This document shows, piece after piece, positions 8,793-18,184 of a stretch of 26,440 bases of DNA. Position numbers and translations under genes: made by a program. Every line of letters begins with the position of its first letter. Position 1 is the first letter of the stretch. Under the pieces are notes generated by a model. The model was not told where the DNA came from and did no database searches. It worked only from the letters and a program-made list of their open reading frames with translations. Source of the DNA: Ectocarpus siliculosus (Eukaryota; Sar; Phaeophyceae; Ectocarpales; Ectocarpaceae); the NCBI GenBank assembly GCA_000310025.1, contig FN647790.1:101344-127783 (forward strand), written 5' to 3'.

Positions 8793-8915
8793 ATGCCGTC
8801 TGTGCACGAGATCCACGTTGAACTCGTCAGGCTCCTGAGCGCCACGGAGCGCCTCGTTGCTGCTGGAGAGCCATCAGCGAGTGGGAGCTGGGAGAACTGG
8901 CCGCGCTTCTGTCAG
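8793..8915 (+). CDS. USE1: USE1-like exon 1 (start codon, N-terminal helix)
   Basis: It encodes 41 codons from ATG (8793) to a GTCAGT donor at 8916, ending in phase 0. The peptide begins MPSVHEIHVELVRLLSATER and ends with a Trp-containing stretch ENWPRFCQ. In USE1 proteins the N-terminus is a short helix with an L-x-R-L-L pattern followed by an acidic/Trp segment leading into a second helix, which matches. An upstream in-frame ATG (8682) would add 37 residues of unlike composition. The downstream one is preferred because the family pattern begins there. Confidence 0.72.
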
Positions 8916-11900
8916 GTCAGTCGGTCACTTGCTGCTGCTGGTCTAGAAAAAATCTGTTCCCCCTCGGGTAGGCTCTTGGTCTGTCCGCGTTTTGGAACAA
9001 CGCCCTACTGCTGCTGCTGCTGCTGCTGCCGCCGCAAGGCCATGAAGCGTCACGAAACTTGATCAGGGTTGGCTGGTTGTCGATGGTTCGAGACATGTTC
9101 TTGCTGCAGTACTGCTGCGGCGGCCTCTCCGCTCTCCCGCTGGCCGTCGCGTACGGAGTATTTCGTTGGTCCCGATTTGGACTTCCGCTTTGTTGTTTGG
9201 TGGGTTGGGCAGTGGTTGTGTAGGGACCCAGCTGTGGTCGAAAGGATAGCTGAAAGAGCATGGAGTGCAGCTTACCAAGTAGGTACTGCCGATTGTAGCA
9301 AAGCAGCAGTGCCTTTGATTTGGGTTGTTTTCGTACCAAAACACGCTTCTCTCTACATACAAGTACATTTTTCCGAAAACTCTCAGCTCTACGCATACGG
9401 AGTAGTTGTATCCGAAAGACACTCCGCACGATGTACCCACGCAAACACACAAGGGCACCACCACCGATTGCTGCTTCCCGGCGAGCTTGTTGCCGTGACA
9501 CAGGCGTCGATATCGCGACCATCTCAGACCCCAGCTGAAACGGACAGAGAACTCCGCGCTCCTTCTCATTTCCTTCTAATGGAACCCCCCTTCGTCTCCG
9601 CCGCCGCCGCTTGCTGACTCCTCCACCCTTAGTTCATTACATCGCTGGACAGCACCCAGTCTCAGCTGCAAGCAAGGGTGGCAGAGGTTTCCCGTGGAGC
9701 CGGCGCCGGCTTGTCGCCAGCGCTCCCAACCGCGGAGGATCTCGCCGACTACGACCGACGCCTCGAGATTTTGCGGCGCAAGCGAGACGATCTCGCGTCT
9801 GCGGCCGCCGCCGCCGCCCTCGCTTCAGCGAAGAACTCCGCAGCAACCGATCCTTCGCAGCAGCAGCAGCAAGCGACTGGGACTGGCGGCGTTGTCGGCG
9901 GTGCTGTTTTCGTCCCCCAAGAAGATGGTGACCGCGTCGTCAGAAGGAGGGAGGCGCGAGGCTCGTCGCGCCGCCGGGGCGCCAAAGACAGCAGCCAAGA
10001 TGATTCCGGCGGGGTGTTTGGCGGGCGGCGCCCTGGCGGCGGGAAGGGGGGGGGGGGGGGGGAGCGGGCCGCGGACGAGGCTGAGGCGGACCAGGTCGCC
10101 CAGGAGATATCTAGCATGGCTGGGAGGCTGAAGGAGTCCAGCGTGGCTATCAACCAGACCCTGAGGACGCAGACCCAGGTACATTTGTGTGGACGGGCGG
10201 ACGGACCCCCAGAATAGCTGCGTCAGTTTCAGACAGGTCGCGCGAAGTTTCGAACGCACAGCACATGCCCGTCTTGTCTTACTCATTGGTGCTCGATGTG
10301 TTGAGGGAAAATCGTCTCCTGCCACACAGGTACACGTGCGATCTGGTCCACCCGAAGGAAATCCTGCATGCAATCAAAACTTTACCTCTTTCTATTTCGT
10401 CGGTTTCTCCGCCTCCTCCGATTTTGTTTGTTTTTTTGGGGAGAAAGCGTGCGGAGGTAGACTGCGTGATGTGCTGGTGGGGACGAGTCCCAACCGCTAC
10501 TCTGTGCGATAACTGTTTAAAGGGTTCTTCCTTGCGGAAATATTCCCCACTAGTGTCACGCATCTCGTGTGTGATCGCTGAGGTGCTCTTTCGGGCGTTT
10601 TCGAGATCAGTCAAGATCAAGATCGGTTGATCATCACACCCTTTTTAAGCTTGGTTTCTTCTTGCTGAGGTGCTCTTTCGGGCGTTTTCGAGATCAGTCA
10701 AGATCAAGATCGGTTGATCATCACACCCTTTTTAAGCTTGGTTTCTTCTTACGGTCCACGAAGATGCGCCCTGTACTTTAGGGGAAGGCCCACCCACGCG
10801 GCAAGGTTTGACGGTTTTGCGGCCGCATCACGTCCACATGTTCGACCCGAAAGCTTGTTCCTCAACCGAAGCAGGAATTTTGGTGGCGTGGCACACCCAG
10901 AGCGCAACAACGGTTGGGCTTAACAACACAAATAAAAATATATCGTGTGACAGATGATAACCTTAAAAGCAAAACAACCTCCTTTTTCGCAAACAGTAAC
11001 CTTAGCAATTAATAGTGACGTGCGAGACTTCTCGCCCCACACACGTTTTTGTTTTATGTGTTGTTATGAAAAGATCGCCCGTTCATGTGCCCTGCGGAAC
11101 AACCCGGCGTTTTCCTTCCTTTTTGCATTCCACAACCTTTTTCAGGTGCTTGAAGACACGGGCGATGCCGCCACCCAGAACGTAGACCGGGTGAAGAGGG
11201 AGAACGCTCGGGTGTCGGAGCGGCTGCGCAAGAAACGGGCCGCCATGTTCGCGTCATGGTGCATGATGATCACGGTGAGACTAAGGGGGATCCCTGAACG
11301 TACGAACGACTCGGGAGGAGAAGAAGGGGGGGGGGGAGGGCGGCGATATGCAGATGCAGTGGCTAACGCAGAGGTGGTTGATCTAGCCATGCTGGTGTTG
11401 CGACTGTTGTTGATGTTGCTGTTGCTGTGTTGTAACTGTTGGTGTTGTTCTTGTTGTAACTGTTGGCTTTGGCGTTGTTGTTGTTGTTGCTGCTGCTATT
11501 ATTGTTGTTGTCGTTGTCGTTGTCGTCGTCGTCATCGTCGTCTCCATCTTCAGCGTCATACCTTGTCGTGCAGCCCTCCGTGTACTGCACCCTCACAAAC
11601 CTCCACCCCGTCCCCGCCAGAGTGCCGCAGCAGACACGAAAGGGTACACTACAGTTCTGCTGCAACTCATGGCGCGAAAAGAGCGCCTGGTTCTGTGCTA
11701 GAAGGCGGATCTACACGATTAGGCAGGCGGCTTGACCTCGCCCTGGAGGTTTCATATTTTGAATAACTCCCGAGAAGAGCGGCAAGTAATCGCCTGCCAC
11801 TCCCCTGCCCGCATCCGTAGCGACCCTTTCGTCTCGTTCACGGATTGGCTATGTCAGTGATGGTGAGAGTAAAACGGGCGTCCCCTCCCCCCCGCAGGTG

Positions 11901-12241
11901 GTGGTGACCTTCTTCGCAACCTACTTCCTCGTGATCGTGCCGTTCGAGAAGAGAAGGGGGCCTTTCGTCGCCGCCCGCACCTCAGCGTTTGCTCAGGCGG
12001 CGGAGCCGAGGGAACGCATCCCCTCGGAGGTAGCTAGTTGTTGTTGTCATCGTCGTTGTTTGTCAAAGCATTTGGGCCCCCAAAGCCGTGCGCTTTCCTC
12101 GTGAGCTGCCGCGTCACGTGCTTGGCTACTGATACAGTTGTCGAGCACCACCACGACCACAGCCGTAACACCGGCCCGGCATCGATTTCTTCTTCTACAA
12201 CCAGGCGTATAGATTTTGGCAAAGACAAGGACTGGTAAACC

Positions 12242-12297
<56 letters not shown>

Positions 12298-13518
12298 GGA
12301 ATGCTGGAACACCCGGTAGGAGGCAGCAGCAGGAAAACGTTCCTCAGCCCCCAACAACGTGCCGACCGAAGCCATCAATACATCTGAACGTGATTCTCCC
12401 ATCCCCCGCTGCGAAAAAACTGTTGGCTTGTCCGTGATGGCAGCACGACGCCGCAGCAACAGCAGCGGGAGCCGCAACAGCGGAGGAGATCCAGCGCCGT
12501 GCGCAAGAGGCGTACCGTGAAACCGCGCGACGTGCCCGCGGAAGGCACGAAGGCGACAACGCTGCCCACCGCGTCGCCAGGGAGGAGAAAGAGGCGTTTC
12601 GTCACCGCCAGGCGTGAGTTTGCGTGCCCCCCAAGTGTATAGCGTTTAGTGTAGTGGCTCCTATGGTACTGGTTTTAGTATTTAGTATGTCGACTACGGC
12701 AGGTTGGCCACACCGCCTTGTCACCTGGTACAGCAGTAGTACGGTCGTGCACGGTAGGTACCACACCACACCCGATTGTACTCCACGACAAGGAGGATGC
12801 CGCAATCAAATGATTTCGGCGAGGTCTCTACAACGGTACTGATGCTGGCCTCCTTGGCTTATCCTGCTTCGGCCACTTAGTGTAGCCAGCACCCAATCGA
12901 GGCACACAGAGGCACAACGGACGGTATCTTCCATTGTTTGGTGTGGTGAAAAGAGGGGATGATTGGTGCAGTTTGTTACGACAGCAGCAGCAGCAGCAGC
13001 AGCAGCAGGTGTCGCGACAACGCGTACGAGCTGATGACGCCTCGAGACCCCGCCCCCCGGCCTCGCCGCCTGCAACACCCCTGTGTCCTTTCACCCACAT
13101 CGCAGGGAGAGGATGATGGCCGCCAATAGAGACAGAAAAGCGGCAATGAAGAAGAATTCCCAGCAGGAAACACTGGAGGCGGGGACCGACTCTGTTCCGC
13201 AACACCGTCAGGAAGAGGGAGCGGAGGAGGGGCAGGTCGTCACGCAGGCTGGGAGCTGCAGTGCTCCCCCTCCCGCTTCTGGTGAGGACAGCAGTGGCGG
13301 TGCGGTGGCTTTGGGTAGCTGCAGTGCTCCTCCTCCTCCTGATGAAGATGGAGATGCTACGGCTGCTGCCGGAAGTTGCACCGCGCCTCCTTCCGACGAA
13401 CATGCTGCTGATGCTGGTGCTGGTGCTGCTGGTGCTGCCGGAAGTTGCACAGTCCCCCCTCCTGACGAAGATTATGCTGGTACTGCCGGAGGTTGCACAG
13501 CTTCCCCTCCAGGCGAAC

Positions 13519-13566
<48 letters not shown>

Positions 13567-16500
13567 ACACTTCGGATAAAACTGTGCCCGCGGTCGAAGA
13601 GGCAGAGGCCTCTCCCGCACAGCCCGTGCTTGACCCGGCGGTAAGTGTGGTGGAAATGTTGTAGGCATTCAATTTTCTATCCGCTTTGTGTGTGCCATCC
13701 TTTTTCTTACGTTGTTTTTGCCGTTCTGCGTGTCCATGTTCCGTCGACAATCCGGAGATATCTACTACAAGTACGTTGAAACAAACGTACGGAGAAGGTG
13801 CTGAATAGAAGTCAGTATGGTTGTTGTTGTGACAATAACACTTGGCTAGCGATGAGAAAGCGCTTCTCTGCTGTCGACTAGGAACGTTGTCGGTTTCGCT
13901 TCTCTGCTGTCGACTACGAACGTTGTCGGTTTGTCGCCTGCTATCTGGCTATGACAACGCACTTGCAAACGGTGTGGTTGAGTTATCCATCACAGCGGTG
14001 TGTAATGTTTTCGTTAAAAATATGGTTGTTGTCCGTGTTGATTTTGGCAAGCCCTACAAATGCTTGGCTCCAAGAGCAATCATTTTTTCGTTCCCGGAAC
14101 TGTGAAAGGTCATCGACTCTGCAAATGTTTTGCAGACGGCAAACGTCCGATTATTCGGAACATGTTGTTTGGCTGCCGAGCATCGAACACACTTTCCCAC
14201 CCAGGCGTCTGGCCGTATCGTGCTCGCTCGCTTTGCACTGGTGCTTTTCCACCCGCCTCCCTCCCCGTACAACATTTTTGAGCCACCGTTGGTAAAGTAG
14301 GAAGGAACCATTGGCCCTCGGTGATCGGTCCTGCGAGAACAATGCTCTCGAGGGCGCGTGGTCCATGGTCTGACAACAAGGGCATGCAAAACATGAGTAC
14401 CCCCCCGCACTCCGCGTAACCCCCCCACCAGGAGGAGCACCGACGAAGGGCGAATCAGGCGTACGAGGAACGGTCTAGGCGCGAGACCGAGAACCTGAAG
14501 AGCACAAACGCCGGGCTCCGTCTTGTGGCGGAGGAAAAGGAGAAGCACCAGCAACAACAAGCGTGCGTGCTGACCCCCCCCCCCCCCCTCCCCCCTGTTT
14601 TTTCGTCTAGGAAAACATCAAAACCCACGGAGTCTTACTATCGCCCTTGGATCAAGGTCCAGCTCTGATGAGCAAGTGTGTAGCCGGAATTGCCTACCTA
14701 TTGTGTGTATGTGTGTTGATGTCGCCTATTCTGGATACCAGCCTTCACCTTCGGTACATGTTGGATGCACAAGCGCTGGATTTTTTGTTTTGTTTTTGCC
14801 GCGGTCGGTGCTTGCAACCAATTTTTTAACGTCGGAAAAGTTCCTTCCCTCTTTGTGGCGCTTACCCTCGAGGTAGATTGCGAGATTCGAACCCACAACC
14901 CAGAGACACTCACACAGACAGAGAGAGACAGAGAGACAGAGACAAAGACAGAGAAGACAGAGACAGAGACAGGCAGACAGAAAGGCTGACAGGCAGAGAC
15001 TGAGAGACAGATAGTCTGACGGTTTCAAGATCACAAAACTGAACCACAGGGTCGACTACCCTGGAAGTAGTTTTTCTTGCGATACGTATGCATACCCTTG
15101 CGTTAGGTGTTTTGACCTCCGTTTTTCTCCCCCCACTATCATCGGCGTGCTCTACTCTCGCGGACCAACAACCTCCAGCGAGAAAATGCTGCAGGCAGCG
15201 AGCGAACGCAAAGCCATGGCGGCCGCGGGAAAGGTCAGGGAGGAGGCGCAAGTACGGCAGCGGGACGAGGAGGAGGCGGAGGCGGAGGCGGCCTTACAGG
15301 CTAGGGCTCCCGGTTCAGCCGGAGGCGAAACCGCCACGGATGTTAACACCGCCACGGATGACAACACCGCCACGGATGATAACACCCCCACGGATGACAA
15401 CACCGCCACGGATGATAACACCCCCACGGATGATGACAACGATGAGCGGAGTGGAGGTGGACAAGTCGACCGTGCCGGGGGTCCTGCCGCTGAGGTGGCC
15501 GAAGAAGCGGACAAAGGAGGCGATGATGCCGCGGCTCTACCAGATTCTTCTGTGGACTCTCAAGAGGTCGGAATTTTAATTTTTTGTATTTTTTTGCTTC
15601 GCGACTTGGCAGTATTTATTCATAAAAGTCGCCTTCGGGGGTGTGTCCGAATTGGTGCAGACAGGGTCGTCTTTCTTCTTCGTATTTTTCTCGAAACCAC
15701 CTCGACGACGTTGATATTTTGTTTTGTCGCCGCACGCGGCCTTTGTATCCTTCTTTCTTCTGCGGTAGGGAAATTTCGTTTGTTCTTTCATCACGATTTC
15801 GCTCTCGATCGGAACGGAAGTTGGTGCCAAAATCACAACGACACACTTGATGCTGTCCGGGTTTTGTAGGGATGGGAGGTCAATGTTTTAAAGGATTAGG
15901 CCATCCACCCTTAGGAGTCCCCCCCCCCCCGGGGGGGGGGGGGGGCGTACTCTTATGTTTTGCATTCCTTAGCGGTTAGACCATTGCGGGGGGGGGCGCT
16001 GATTGTACCGCGTGTTCCCGTGTTCGATTCTTTTTTTTGCCCGCTATTTCGGAGGACTGACTTATGATTGGTCAGCAGGTTAACGCGGTCGATGCGAGAT
16101 AAAGAGACGCTACGCTAAGTCATTCTCTGCCAGGGAGGAACACCGCAGCTAGCCGAGTCCTAACGAAACAGACGCAAGCGATGAATACAACGGCAAACTG
16201 CTTCTCCTCCGCTTTTTGTGTCCACGTCTCACCTTTGTTTTCGTTCGTCCTGCCCGTAAAATCATCAGGCCGGGCGTCGAAGGGCGGAAGAGGCGAGGTT
16301 GGCGTACGAACAAAACGCACGCCGCGCGGCGGACAGCTTGGCCAGCCAGAACGCCGGGCAGCGGCTGGTCTCTGAGGAGAAGGAAAAGTACCGGCAACGC
16401 CAAGCGTGAGTTTTTTTTTTTTTGCGAACATATTTATGTGGATGCTGTGCTCTCGTTCGTAACATTGGGCTGGCTCGGGGATTCGGTTTCACCCCTGCCT

Positions 16501-18184
16501 TTGATTGGTTGGTTGTGAGGCAGGCTAGCAGTCAACCTGCCGAACGTTATCTCGTAAGCTCCAACCCTGCCCAACTACTACAGCACGCGCCACCCACCAC
16601 TTCGGAACGTTGGAGTTAACGACTTTAGCTCGAAACGAGCTATTTCGAAGTCAGAGCTTGACCATCAGAACAGCTGCTTAGTTGAGAACCCCTACAGCTA
16701 ACACCTATTATTCATCAGTGTGAGGTGCCCCCATAGAGAAAGACTAAGAAACAAGCCTCTGAGTTAAAACAAAGTAAAACAAAGAAGGGTTTCGAAGAGA
16801 TTGGTGACGCCCTTTGTGTTGGGAAGGTTGACGACGATCGGATTTCCAGCATGCCTTGGCCGCAGACCTGCAGCGAAACGAACGACCCCTGTCATGTGAA
16901 ACGTGCGGGGCTGCGCGGCAATATCGCGATGTGATCGAGGTCTTGGCTCTAGCCGAGCGTGATGTTTTTGTACTCTCGCCGAGAAAGGATTAATCTCAAG
17001 TGTTGGTCGCCTCAAGTTCAACTTGCCGCATCGTAGGGCTAGCGTATTGTAGGCTAGATCGTGGCCACCCAATGCCAAGAAAGAATCGAGAAGACGTGCA
17101 AGAATTTTTTGCGCAAAACACGCATGGGGCTCCCGACTGTTGGTACCGCTTGTGTCAGGAGAAGGAGCGGTGATGTCTCTCGAAAAAGTGATGGGTGGCA
17201 AGAGGCCAAATACATTAAAGACAAGCAACCACGCGCCCCCCGTTGTGTTTGCCATCGGGGTTGGGTTTTCGTCGCTTGGCAGCGACGTTGTAAAACAAGC
17301 CGATCACTTCGTGAGCTCGACAACCAGGTTACTGCTATTTTTTGCCTCTGTTTGTTTTTGCGGTAACCATGATGGTGGTCGAGTAGATTGTGTTGTGCGG
17401 GGTCGAGAACCCTCACTCCGCGCAAACGGGATGATCGCACCACGTTGTGTTAAATTGGTCAAGCACCCTCGAGGCAGTTACACAGTGCTTACAACCAACT
17501 GTCTCTGGAAGTGAAAACACCAGACAATAAACTTAGTCATACGCAGCTGCCATCCGTAAGGAAGTAAGTACAAGATGCCGAACACCCTTAGCAGGATGCA
17601 GCGCACCCTTCATGCGACTCGCCGAATACTTCACGGTGCTTTGCGCTTGGTGATGTGAGAGCCTGGTCCGGTGAGAACCCGGCGTGGTCCGTCCCGGCTT
17701 TGTAGGGATGCGAGGTCAATGGTCTAACGACTGCGGCATGCACGACTATGAGTACCCCCCCCCCCTCGTGTGTTTCTCCTCCCCCCGCTAACCCACCCCC
17801 TCTACTTGTTTCTGTCGCTCCAGAAAAAAAATCATGGAAGGTGCGGCGAGGAGGAAGCAGCAGCGCCACCAGCAAGGCGGCGAAACTAGCGATCAGCTAG
17901 AGCTAGAGGGTGACGGTTCACCGCCCGACTCAGAGACCGGCAGAGAGAACGCCGACGGGACGATTGGAAACCCCGCTGAGGAACCCTCTTCGGGAGTTGG
18001 GGGCGACGGTGGTGGTGGTGGTGCTACTCCTGCGGTTGGGAGCAGCGGGCGTGGGAGTAGCCAGGGATCAGGCGGTCTCGATGCCGTTCGCATGCGGCTG
18101 CGCGAGAGCTTAGGAAGCAAACGAGGGGGAGGGGGGGGGGAGACGTCAACGAACGGTCACGGAAGCCGAAGAGACGAGCTTTGA
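8793..18184 (+). CDS. USE1: USE1-like ER SNARE with long exon-cassette luminal tail ending in RDEL (10-exon model)
   Basis: Model: join 8793-8915, 9633-10178, 11146-11274, 11898-12029, 12444-12613, 13106-13640, 14432-14562, 15179-15566, 16269-16405, 17824-18184; 883 codons. USE1 is the ER-resident SNARE of the retrograde Golgi-to-ER fusion complex (with syntaxin-18, Sec20 and Sec22 type partners) and is C-terminally membrane anchored. Seen here: an N-terminal helical region (ELVRLLSATERL, then LADYDRRLEILRRKRDDL), a SNARE heptad region at residues about 196-245, a basic stop (RLRKKR) and a hydrophobic anchor at about 257-282. Known family proteins end almost at once after the anchor; this one continues about 600 residues through three repeated exon pairs to a terminal RDEL. 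Every junction is GT/AG and phase-compatible. Identification as USE1 rests on recognised sequence pattern, not a search. The link from exon 4 to the tail is inferred from phase and topology, so a separate downstream gene is the main alternative. Confidence 0.78.
8916..9632 (+). other. USE1-like intron 1
   Basis: 717-nt phase-0 intron, GTCAGT donor and CCACCCTTAG acceptor. It contains a CTG/CTGC tract at 9009-9030. Splicing it out joins RFCQ directly to FITSLDSTQSQL, restoring the helix expected in this family. Long open frames inside it on both strands have no recognisable protein content. Confidence 0.65.
9633..10178 (+). CDS. USE1: USE1-like exon 2 (linker and first half of SNARE motif)
   Basis: 182 codons, phase 0 at both ends. 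It starts FITSLDSTQSQLQARVAEVS, continues with LPTAEDLADYDRRLEILRRK, then a low-complexity linker (A7, Q5, G runs), and ends in ISSMAGRLKESSVAINQTLR plus TQTQ, the N-terminal half of the SNARE heptads. A 17-G homopolymer (10046-10062) lies inside the coding sequence. The frame is right on both sides of it, since recognisable family sequence flanks the run, which argues that the G count as given is correct. Donor is AG|GTACAT. Confidence 0.85.
10179..11145 (+). other. USE1-like intron 2, carrying an exact tandem duplication
   Basis: 967-nt phase-0 intron with a clear polypyrimidine tract (CCACAACCTTTTTCAG). It holds the perfect 87-bp duplication at 10577-10750. It splits the SNARE motif next to the central layer. 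Confidence 0.8.
10577..10750 (+). repeat. Exact 87-bp tandem duplication (2 copies)
   Basis: Copy 1 is 10577-10663 and copy 2 is 10664-10750. I see no mismatch between them. Each copy starts GCTGAGGTGCTCTTTCGGGC and ends GGTTTCTTCTT. Absence of divergence implies a very recent event or an assembly artefact. Confidence 0.95.
11146..11274 (+). CDS. USE1: USE1-like exon 3 (second half of SNARE motif and start of anchor)
   Basis: 43 codons, phase 0 at both ends. It reads VLEDTGDAATQNVDRVKREN, then ARVSERLRKKRAAMF and ASWCMMIT. It supplies the + layers of the SNARE helix, the juxtamembrane basic cluster RLRKKR and the first residues of the membrane anchor. The pattern A-x-Q-N-V/L-x-x-V/L-K-x-E-x-x-R just before the anchor is the most diagnostic USE1-type segment in the window. 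Donor GTGAGA. Confidence 0.9.
11898..12029 (+). CDS. USE1: USE1-like exon 4 (membrane anchor and first luminal residues)
   Basis: 44 codons, phase 0 at both ends, after a CCCCCCCGCAG acceptor. VVVTFFATYFLVIVPFEK completes a hydrophobic segment with exon 3, giving about 25 residues (257-282). It continues with RRGPFVAARTSAFAQAA and an acidic/Pro end. By USE1 topology everything after the anchor is luminal. Donor is GAG|GTAGCT. If not spliced, the frame reads 24 more codons to TGA at 12102-12104, which would give a conventional short-tailed SNARE of 334 residues. Confidence 0.85.
12245..12293. repeat. (TC)n microsatellite
   Basis: An uninterrupted TC tract of about 24 units in the exon 4 to A1 intron. 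Confidence 0.95.
12444..12613 (+). CDS. Tail cassette exon A1
   Basis: Starts in phase 0 and ends in phase 2 with donor GC|GTGAGT. It encodes an Ala-rich lead HDAAATAAGAATA followed by a charged helix EEIQRRAQEAYRETARRARG and the end motif AREEKEAFRHRQA. It is homologous to A2 and A3 (shared R-R-A-x-x-A-Y, R-R, then EEKE-x-x(2)-Q-x-Q-A). It is the most diverged of the three, with a 13-residue extra N-terminus. The acceptor TGATGGCAG has only a modest pyrimidine tract, but it is the only nearby AG giving the needed phase. Predicted luminal coiled-coil type helix; no family recognised. Confidence 0.7.
12982..13008. repeat. (CAG)9 microsatellite, intronic
   Basis: Nine CAG units in the A1-B1 intron. 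Although it reads as polyglutamine, no exon boundary supports translation. Confidence 0.9.
13106..13640 (+). CDS. Tail cassette exon B1 (helix plus Cys-Pro repeats and polyalanine)
   Basis: Starts with one base completing the Ala codon left by A1 and ends in phase 0 (GCG|GTAAGT). The conserved B-type opening is ERMMAANRDRKAAMKK. It is followed by five imperfect repeats of G-(S/G)-C-(S/T)-x-(P/S)-P with acidic D/E spacers (GSCSAPPP, GSCSAPPPP, GSCTAPPS, GSCTVPPP, GGCTASPP), each with one cysteine, then 15 alanines encoded purely by GCT (13521-13565). Five regularly spaced cysteines in a predicted ER-luminal region could form disulfides. No known domain recognised. Frame is fixed by the upstream exon. 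Confidence 0.75.
13521..13565 (+). repeat. (GCT)15 coding microsatellite (polyalanine)
   Basis: Fifteen uninterrupted GCT units in the B1 reading frame. The purity suggests a length-variable site. Confidence 0.95.
13861..13932 (+). repeat. 36-bp tandem duplication in intron
   Basis: Copies 13861-13896 and 13897-13932 differ at one base (AGG versus ACG). It lies in the B1-A2 intron (13641-14431). Confidence 0.9.
14341..14410 (+). repeat. Intronic repeat family, copy i
   Basis: The segment around GTGGTCCATGGTCTGACAAC, GGCATGCA and ATGAGTACCCCCC resembles 17671-17760 (GGTCAATGGTCTAACGAC, GGCATGCACGAC, ATGAGTACCCCCC) and more weakly 15864-15930. It sits about 20 nt before the A2 acceptor, so its C-run may serve as pyrimidine tract. 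Confidence 0.55.
14432..14562 (+). CDS. Tail cassette exon A2
   Basis: Phase 0 to phase 2 (donor GC|GTGCGT). It encodes EEHRRRANQAYEERSRRETE, then NLKSTNAGLRLV and AEEKEKHQQQQA. It aligns with A3 over its full length (RRRA, AYE, RR, NAG-x-RLV, EEKEK, QQA) and with A1 in the second half. Acceptor CCCCCCCACCAG is strong. Predicted charged helix on the luminal side. Confidence 0.8.
14876..15056 (-). repeat. tRNA-like element with microsatellite between its Pol III boxes
   Basis: On the minus strand, TGGTTCAGTTT (plus 15036-15046) resembles an A box. GGTTCGAATCT (plus 14883-14893, within a TGGGTTCGAATCTCGC context) is a near-consensus B box. Between them, about 120 nt consist of TCTG/TCTC repeats. 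This looks like a tRNA or tRNA-derived SINE head expanded by a microsatellite. It is not a functional tRNA because no cloverleaf spacing remains. It lies in the A2-B2 intron. Confidence 0.5.
15179..15566 (+). CDS. Tail cassette exon B2 (helix plus acidic minisatellite)
   Basis: One base completes the A2 Ala codon; the end is phase 0 (GAG|GTCGGA). The B-type opening EKMLQAASERKAMAAAGK matches B1 and B3 in layout. It continues as a Glu/Ala helix (EEEAEAEAALQA), then six copies of an 18-bp unit coding T-(A/P)-T-D-D-N (15333-15440), and an acidic end. Strongly acidic overall; low-affinity calcium binding, common in ER-luminal acidic regions, is a possibility but only inferred. Confidence 0.75.
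15333..15440 (+). repeat. 18-bp coding minisatellite, 6 copies
   Basis: Units of the form (G/C)CCACGGATGAYAACACC, giving alternating A/P at one residue. The first unit has GTT for GAC/GAT and the last ends in GACAAC. The multiple-of-three length keeps the frame. Confidence 0.93.
15864..16036 (+). repeat. Intronic repeat copy ii followed by tRNA-like A/B boxes and T8
   Basis: 15864-15930 shares TTGTAGGGATG-(C/G)-GAGGTCAATG with 17700-17721. Downstream, TTAGCGGTTAGACCATTG (15969-15986) resembles a tRNA D-arm/A box. GTGTTCGATTC (16020-16030) resembles a B box and is followed by T8 (a Pol III terminator type run). Together they look like a decayed tRNA-derived SINE. Confidence 0.45.
15919..15945. 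repeat. C12G15 homopolymer palindrome
   Basis: Twelve C followed directly by fifteen G in the B2-A3 intron. It can fold as a perfect GC hairpin or form a G-quadruplex on either strand. It may also mark a sequencing or assembly join. Confidence 0.85.
16269..16405 (+). CDS. Tail cassette exon A3
   Basis: Phase 0 to phase 2 (donor GC|GTGAGT). It encodes AGRRRAEEARLAYEQNARRA, then ADSLASQNAGQRLV and SEEKEKYRQRQA. Compared with A2 it has a short insertion before AYE and otherwise aligns throughout. Acceptor AAATCATCAG follows a mixed pyrimidine tract (CGTTCGTCCTGCCC). Predicted luminal charged helix. Confidence 0.8.
16406..17823 (+). other. A3-B3 intron
   Basis: 1418-nt phase-2 intron with donor GTGAGT and acceptor TTTCTGTCGCTCCAG. 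It holds intronic repeat copy iii (about 17671-17765). I found no decayed extra A or B exon in it. Confidence 0.7.
17671..17765 (+). repeat. Intronic repeat family, copy iii
   Basis: The best preserved copy: GTCCGGTGAGAACCCGGCGT, GGCTTTGTAGGGATGCGAGG, TCAATGGTCTAACGACTGCG, then GGCATGCACGAC and a long C run. The portion GGTCAATGGTCTAACGAC resembles a tRNA D-arm. It ends about 60 nt before the B3 acceptor. Confidence 0.55.
17824..18184 (+). CDS. Tail cassette exon B3, terminal exon ending in RDEL
   Basis: One base completes the A3 Ala codon. The B-type opening is KKIMEGAARRKQQRHQQ, then an acidic Ser/Gly-rich low-complexity region, a short helix (DAVRMRLRESLG) and an end GHGSRRDEL followed by TGA at 18182-18184. 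RDEL fits the ER-retrieval pattern [KRHQSA]-[DENQ]-E-L at a C-terminus, which the KDEL receptor recognises on luminal proteins. That placement agrees with USE1 topology and supports both the frame and the joining of the tail to the SNARE. Confidence 0.82.

Follow-up and report, generated by a model that had tools for sequence, protein, structure and literature searches.

A USE1-type SNARE gene of Ectocarpus siliculosus with a likely long luminal tail and a terminal RDEL as a candidate retrieval signal

Introduction

The closest described relatives of the gene considered here are two SNAREs, USE1/Slt1 (PF09753), which is a Golgi-to-ER Qc-SNARE, and the yeast Qb-SNARE Sec20. Known USE1 proteins stop shortly after the membrane segment, which is a usual trait of the family and not a defining one. 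Sec20 bears an HDEL on its luminal C-terminus, at the end of a luminal tail of fewer than 100 residues. In yeast, Sec20 is reportedly sorted by the HDEL system, to judge by the title of a 1992 paper of Sweet and Pelham that appears in reference lists. Use1p, Ufe1p and Sec20p are named together as SNAREs of the ER and partners of the Dsl1 tether (excerpt of PMC5963807), and Use1p is described as widely conserved (excerpt of PMC9804665).

A gene of the brown alga Ectocarpus siliculosus invites comparison with both. Its product resembles USE1/Slt1 in its match to nearly the whole length of the Pfam family and in the order of a SNARE motif followed by one membrane segment, but it differs from known USE1 proteins in the roughly 601 residues that lie beyond that segment. 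The likeness to Sec20 lies in membership of the same complex (Ufe1, Use1 and Sec20; PMC5963807, in excerpt) and in sorting by the ERD2 system, which is a prediction for the algal protein. In contrast to Sec20, however, the algal protein belongs to another SNARE family, with no Sec20 match, ends in RDEL instead of HDEL, and has a much longer, modular tail.

An earlier note on this DNA had held that no SNARE of such architecture was described. That claim fails on the example of Sec20, since this partner of USE1 in yeast already depends on HDEL sorting. The use of ERD2 by a SNARE of the Ufe1/Use1/Sec20 complex is already known, and what would be new is its occurrence on USE1, together with a tail of about 600 residues. 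Neither a USE1 that uses ERD2 nor one with a tail of that size was found in searches of one library of open papers, which is not proof that none exists.

The gene and its product

The window, which is the whole stretch of DNA that was analysed, comprises 26,440 bases (C37:101344-127783) of an assembly whose 492 contigs total 189,456,909 bases. A search of the genome with the DNA of exon 4 gave one match, at this window. Ten exons join into a single open frame of 883 residues that closes with RDEL and a stop:

8793 to 8915, plus strand: USE1 exon 1, with the start codon at 8793; phase 0 out
9633 to 10178, plus strand: USE1 exon 2, the cytosolic part and the first half of the SNARE motif
11146 to 11274, plus strand: USE1 exon 3, the second half of the SNARE motif and the start of the membrane segment
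11898 to 12029, plus strand: USE1 exon 4, the membrane segment and the first residues beyond it; donor GAG/GTAGCT, phase 0
12444 to 12613, plus strand: tail exon 5, first half of module copy 1; phase 0 in, phase 2 out
13106 to 13640, plus strand: tail exon 6, second half of module copy 1, then a linker with five Cys and a run of 15 Ala residues
14432 to 14562, plus strand: tail exon 7, first half of module copy 2; phase 0 in, phase 2 out
15179 to 15566, plus strand: tail exon 8, second half of module copy 2, then a linker of TDDN repeats
16269 to 16405, plus strand: tail exon 9, first half of module copy 3; phase 0 in, phase 2 out
17824 to 18184, plus strand: tail exon 10, second half of module copy 3, then a Gly-rich linker and the terminal RDEL (18170-18181), closed by the stop codon (18182-18184)

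All nine introns of this model start with GT and end with AG, and they range in length from 414 to 1418 bases. The end of exon 1 is fixed at 8915, as the frame is lost with an end at 8913 or 8914. The phase-0 end of exon 4 at 12029, proposed earlier, was confirmed, and the chain of six further exons in frame to the RDEL likewise held in the 883-residue frame. The proposed tail of some 600 residues also stands, with 573 of its residues supplied by exons 5 to 10. Within intron 2, a stretch of 87 bases is repeated exactly and in tandem (10577-10663, 10664-10750).

The assignment of the N-terminal part to USE1 is supported by Pfam. Residues 1-310 match the Use1 family over residues 8-274 with an E value of 2.8e-18 and 66.9 bits, above the curated cut-off of 38.3. 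A single hydrophobic segment, residues 253-285, follows directly after the SNARE motif; when the 883 residues were scanned in 19-residue windows, a mean hydropathy above 1.2 was reached only by those starting at residues 253-267. Sec20 (PF03908) is absent among the nine families listed at E <=1 for this protein. Gln 221 is aligned to the Gln of the DTQ of SNAP-25 in gapless alignments that are nevertheless weak (E 0.43 and 0.44 for the chains shown), and the aligned position is presumably the central layer of the SNARE complex. Both yeast and human Use1 have Asp at the central-layer position.

Other searches with this part of the protein gave little. A search of the PDB with exon 2 alone returned three matches, the best at E 0.048 to an unrelated chain, and none was usable. 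Relatives of the USE1 anchor were not found in viral contigs or plasmids, collections that do not hold eukaryotic orthologues. When the whole genome was searched with the USE1 family, no match rose above the cut-off; the gene in hand, with its short exons, was missed as well, so that the result is no evidence of absence. The same holds for the search of the whole genome with the Sec20 family, which also gave nothing above its cut-off. Two sub-threshold Sec20 candidates were inspected and set aside. One looks like another Qb-SNARE, which is taken here to be Vti1-like, and ends right after its membrane segment, and the other could not be interpreted.

The tail and its modules

The tail is built from three tandem homologous copies of one exon pair (exons 5 and 6, 7 and 8, and 9 and 10) with identical phases. 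Each pair starts and finishes in phase 0, the last one with the stop codon, and the phase-2 intron between its two exons interrupts the Ala codon of a Q-A pair inside the module. Pairwise alignments of the modules score 114, 105 and 142, while the maxima among 2,000 shuffles per pair are 82, 77 and 75. Copy 1 is 42% identical to copy 2 and likewise to copy 3, and 18 of the 63 columns of the three-copy alignment are invariant. Among 174 aligned codon pairs, differences number 67, 62 and 107 at the first, second and third positions, respectively, with a Fisher p of 1.5e-7 that is too small because the three copy pairs are mutually dependent. Based on the tandem duplication of the exon pair, an argument absent from the earlier note, and on the excess of third-position changes, exons 5 to 10 look to be truly coding. 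The module homology further settles in which frame the beginning of exon 10 is read, downstream of its run of eight A.

As far as two genome searches reach, in which only the top candidates were scored, the module appears to be confined to the USE1 locus. With copy 1, all four matches lay within the USE1 gene. With copy 2, four of the five matches at E <=10 did so and the fifth, on C9, had an E value of 0.69. No Pfam family was found at E <=1 in the 573 residues of exons 5-10, and a search of the PDB with the module profile gave two matches (E 1.7 and 5.1), neither of them usable. There were no relatives of the module in viral contigs or prokaryote genomes, a result that says nothing on eukaryotic orthologues.

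Ala makes up 20% of the tail, Glu 11% and Arg 9%; with 107 acidic and 67 basic residues, the tail is acidic on balance. It contains no N-glycosylation sequon in 573 residues. A charged, Ala-rich tail without a sequon is atypical of luminal domains and counts against a luminal reading. The term "large luminal domain" used in the earlier note was therefore too strong: the length stands, but in place of a domain there are charged modules and low-complexity linkers, with neither a Pfam domain nor a sequon. It might be guessed from the composition that the tail forms a helical, extended spacer.

All five Cys of the tail lie in exon 6, at residues 418, 439, 458, 481 and 497, at intervals of 16 to 23 residues, and their Pro-rich surroundings resemble one another. 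Four of them stand in G-S-C-[ST]-[AV]-P-P and one in G-G-C-T-A-S-P-P. Disulfides would be possible if the tail is luminal.

One gene or two

The joining of USE1 to the modules depends on the splice from 12029 to 12444. No ATG stands in the frame of exon 5, and a TGA in that frame (12435-12437) starts nine bases upstream of it. Because of these two features, exon 5 must be spliced in phase 0 to an exon further upstream, and exon 4 supplies a donor of that phase at 12029. Exon 4 holds five other phase-0 GTs, of which four (11900, 11903, 11930 and 11936) fall within the membrane segment and the fifth, at 11966, lies beyond it (TTC/GTCGCC). Two features of the intervening sequence bear on alternative structures:

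12030 to 12104, plus strand: continuation of exon 4 past its donor until a stop (12102-12104), GTT/GTC-rich; possible end of a short USE1 isoform
12301 to 12315, plus strand: alternative first exon of five codons with an ATG; 128-base intron to exon 5

The 12029/12444 splice is inferred from the sequence, and the fusion is probable. The alternative is that USE1 ends near 12104 and that exons 5-10 form a separate neighbouring gene, with its first exon in 12030-12443 or nested in a USE1 intron, in which case RDEL would be the chance end of a cytosolic protein. Such an arrangement would agree with the donor at 12029 (GTAGCT), which is weak in lacking a G at +5, as is only one other of the nine donors (exon 2). 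It would also account for a tail that has no Pfam family, no sequon and a composition unlike that of the lumen. Additionally, the 17 bases before the acceptor of exon 5 are 53% pyrimidine, the joint lowest of the nine acceptors with exon 8. However, a second gene would leave only 414 bases for a 3' end, promoter, 5' end and exon together, and exon 5 is unable to start itself. When introns of at least 60 bases were allowed, the five-codon exon at 12301-12315 was the only phase-compatible ATG exon in 12030-12443, and although it offers a possible start, its 128-base intron falls far below the 414-1418 bases of the nine model introns. An RDEL by chance would be rare and would have to coincide with an ER membrane protein as neighbour. 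Two separate genes thus seem rather improbable. A scan of 12030-12443 for bacterial promoters and terminators found none, which is uninformative for a eukaryote, and the AATAAA count, 16 against 7.5 expected, was given no weight.

In a further alternative, both ends are used: a short USE1 reaching 12104 acts as the SNARE, and the tail is found only on a less abundant long isoform. A transcript could either be spliced at 12029 or read through to 12104, and a weak donor favours inefficient splicing. On the other hand, the sequence past 12029 begins with microsatellite-like GTT/GTC repeats such as are also present in intron 3. This GTT/GTC-rich start makes 12030-12104 look intronic, and a conserved short end is unlikely there. 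Alternative splicing of this kind is regarded as quite unlikely; it overlaps the main explanation, and the likelihoods attached to the different readings in this text do not add up to a whole.

The RDEL terminus and the ERD2 receptors

The likely product is a USE1 whose long tail lies in the ER lumen; the luminal side of the tail would follow from the single membrane segment. The C-terminal [KRHD]DEL pattern is present as the RDEL encoded at 18170-18181, subject to the reading of a homopolymer shortly before it:

18131 to 18140, plus strand: run of ten G that sets the frame of the last 14 residues

The other two frames past this run end differently, and a miscount of it could remove the RDEL, a dependence that the earlier note had missed. 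Among the frames of the window that close with a stop and span 20 residues or more (387 on the plus strand and 399 on the minus strand, 786 in all), only that of exon 10 ends in [KRH]DEL; no others match the wider pattern. From the protein's own composition, the chance of such an end is 3.8e-5 for strict [KRH]DEL and 4.4e-4 for the wide pattern. The figure of 1.5 in 10,000 given earlier for the wide pattern was therefore somewhat small.

The genome encodes candidate receptors. In a profile search of the genome, seven of nine ERD2-like matches, on C4, C12, C2 and C55, were above the cut-off. By an alignment made by eye to the human sequence, with numbering partly from an excerpt of PMC8248988, all four copies carry W at position 120, and D stands at position 50 in each of the three for which that exon was seen (C12, C2 and C55). 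The gatekeeper position 117 is not E in any of them, being Q in C12, N in C2, R in C55 and D in C4. The four ERD2-like genes could thus encode receptors with different signal preferences.

The termini of ER proteins of the same genome were read from single exons rather than from spliced frames. For protein disulfide isomerase (PDI), the last exon near the domain match ends VKDEL. For BiP (C2:6087300-6092800), the last exon, which runs to about 6092014, ends GDDEL and not KDEL or HDEL, and a GRP94-like HSP90 gene (C13:949500-953400) probably ends LDEL (DLDEL after an acidic run). Given the DDEL of BiP, the ER signals in use would seem to differ from the textbook set. The RDEL protein has a C-terminal xDEL in common with PDI and BiP, but PDI and BiP are soluble ER proteins and it is a membrane SNARE. 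For two calreticulin-like genes, no xDEL end was found in the flanks examined. A pattern of two acidic residues followed by HDEL, KDEL, QDEL or NDEL gave two matches, of which the first is not at a stop and the second lacks a sensible frame. Both were ascribed to chance; no real ER protein was found by this pattern.

Because ERD2-like genes are present and PDI ends in KDEL, a role of RDEL as a retrieval signal is plausible from the sequence, and, given the fusion, there is a good chance that it works. The vertebrate receptor binds RDEL with a KD of 2.71 uM, compared with 1.94 for KDEL and 0.24 for HDEL (excerpt of PMC8248988). It could also be that the fusion is real and the tail luminal, but that RDEL goes unused, with the receptors reading other signals or the G run miscounted, and that the tail serves another purpose. 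The receptors may indeed prefer other signals, because BiP ends in GDDEL and the GRP94-like protein probably in LDEL, and in place of E their position 117 carries Q, N, R or D. In the receptor study (PMC8248988), a D50N/E117Q receptor shifts its selectivity to ADEL and DDEL, and diatom studies check for KDEL, DDEL or DEEL (excerpts of PMC2173943 and PMC4523565). In contrast, the KDEL of PDI speaks against an idle RDEL, as do the human E117Q and E117D receptors, which still respond to KDEL, RDEL and HDEL (excerpt of PMC8248988). Overall, an unused RDEL is considered improbable. A further point counts against a reading by ERD2: according to a review on yeast, Rer1 and a KKXX motif, and not Erd2, bring ER-resident SNAREs back (PMC4307317).

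Proposed function and significance

Taken as a whole, the reading towards which the evidence leans is that of one gene for a USE1-type SNARE with a cytosolic N-terminus, an ER-luminal tail of about 600 residues and an RDEL read by ERD2. Because hundreds of residues follow the membrane segment, established insertion pathways suggest co-translational insertion as a signal anchor, in place of the route taken by tail-anchored proteins. The N-terminal USE1 part would face the cytosol, and the tail, with its three charged modules of roughly 60 residues and two exons each and its low-complexity linkers, would lie in the ER lumen. Should the SNARE leak to the Golgi, its RDEL would be bound by at least one of the ERD2 receptors of the genome, and COPI vesicles would return it to the ER arrival site, which is its workplace.

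More speculatively, luminal retrieval, a property of Sec20 in yeast, may have moved to USE1 or arisen on it independently, with the charged modules serving in the lumen to space or organise ER arrival sites and also as a handle for ERD2. This broader idea is a long shot.

If the join is true, the algal gene would make USE1 the second member of the ER arrival SNARE complex with an ERD2 signal of its own, here outside yeast. One could then test whether a Qc-SNARE can bear so large a tail in the lumen, at odds with the usual picture of SNAREs as tail-anchored proteins. It would also be testable whether the ERD2-based return of arrival SNAREs is a general need that is met by different subunits in each lineage.
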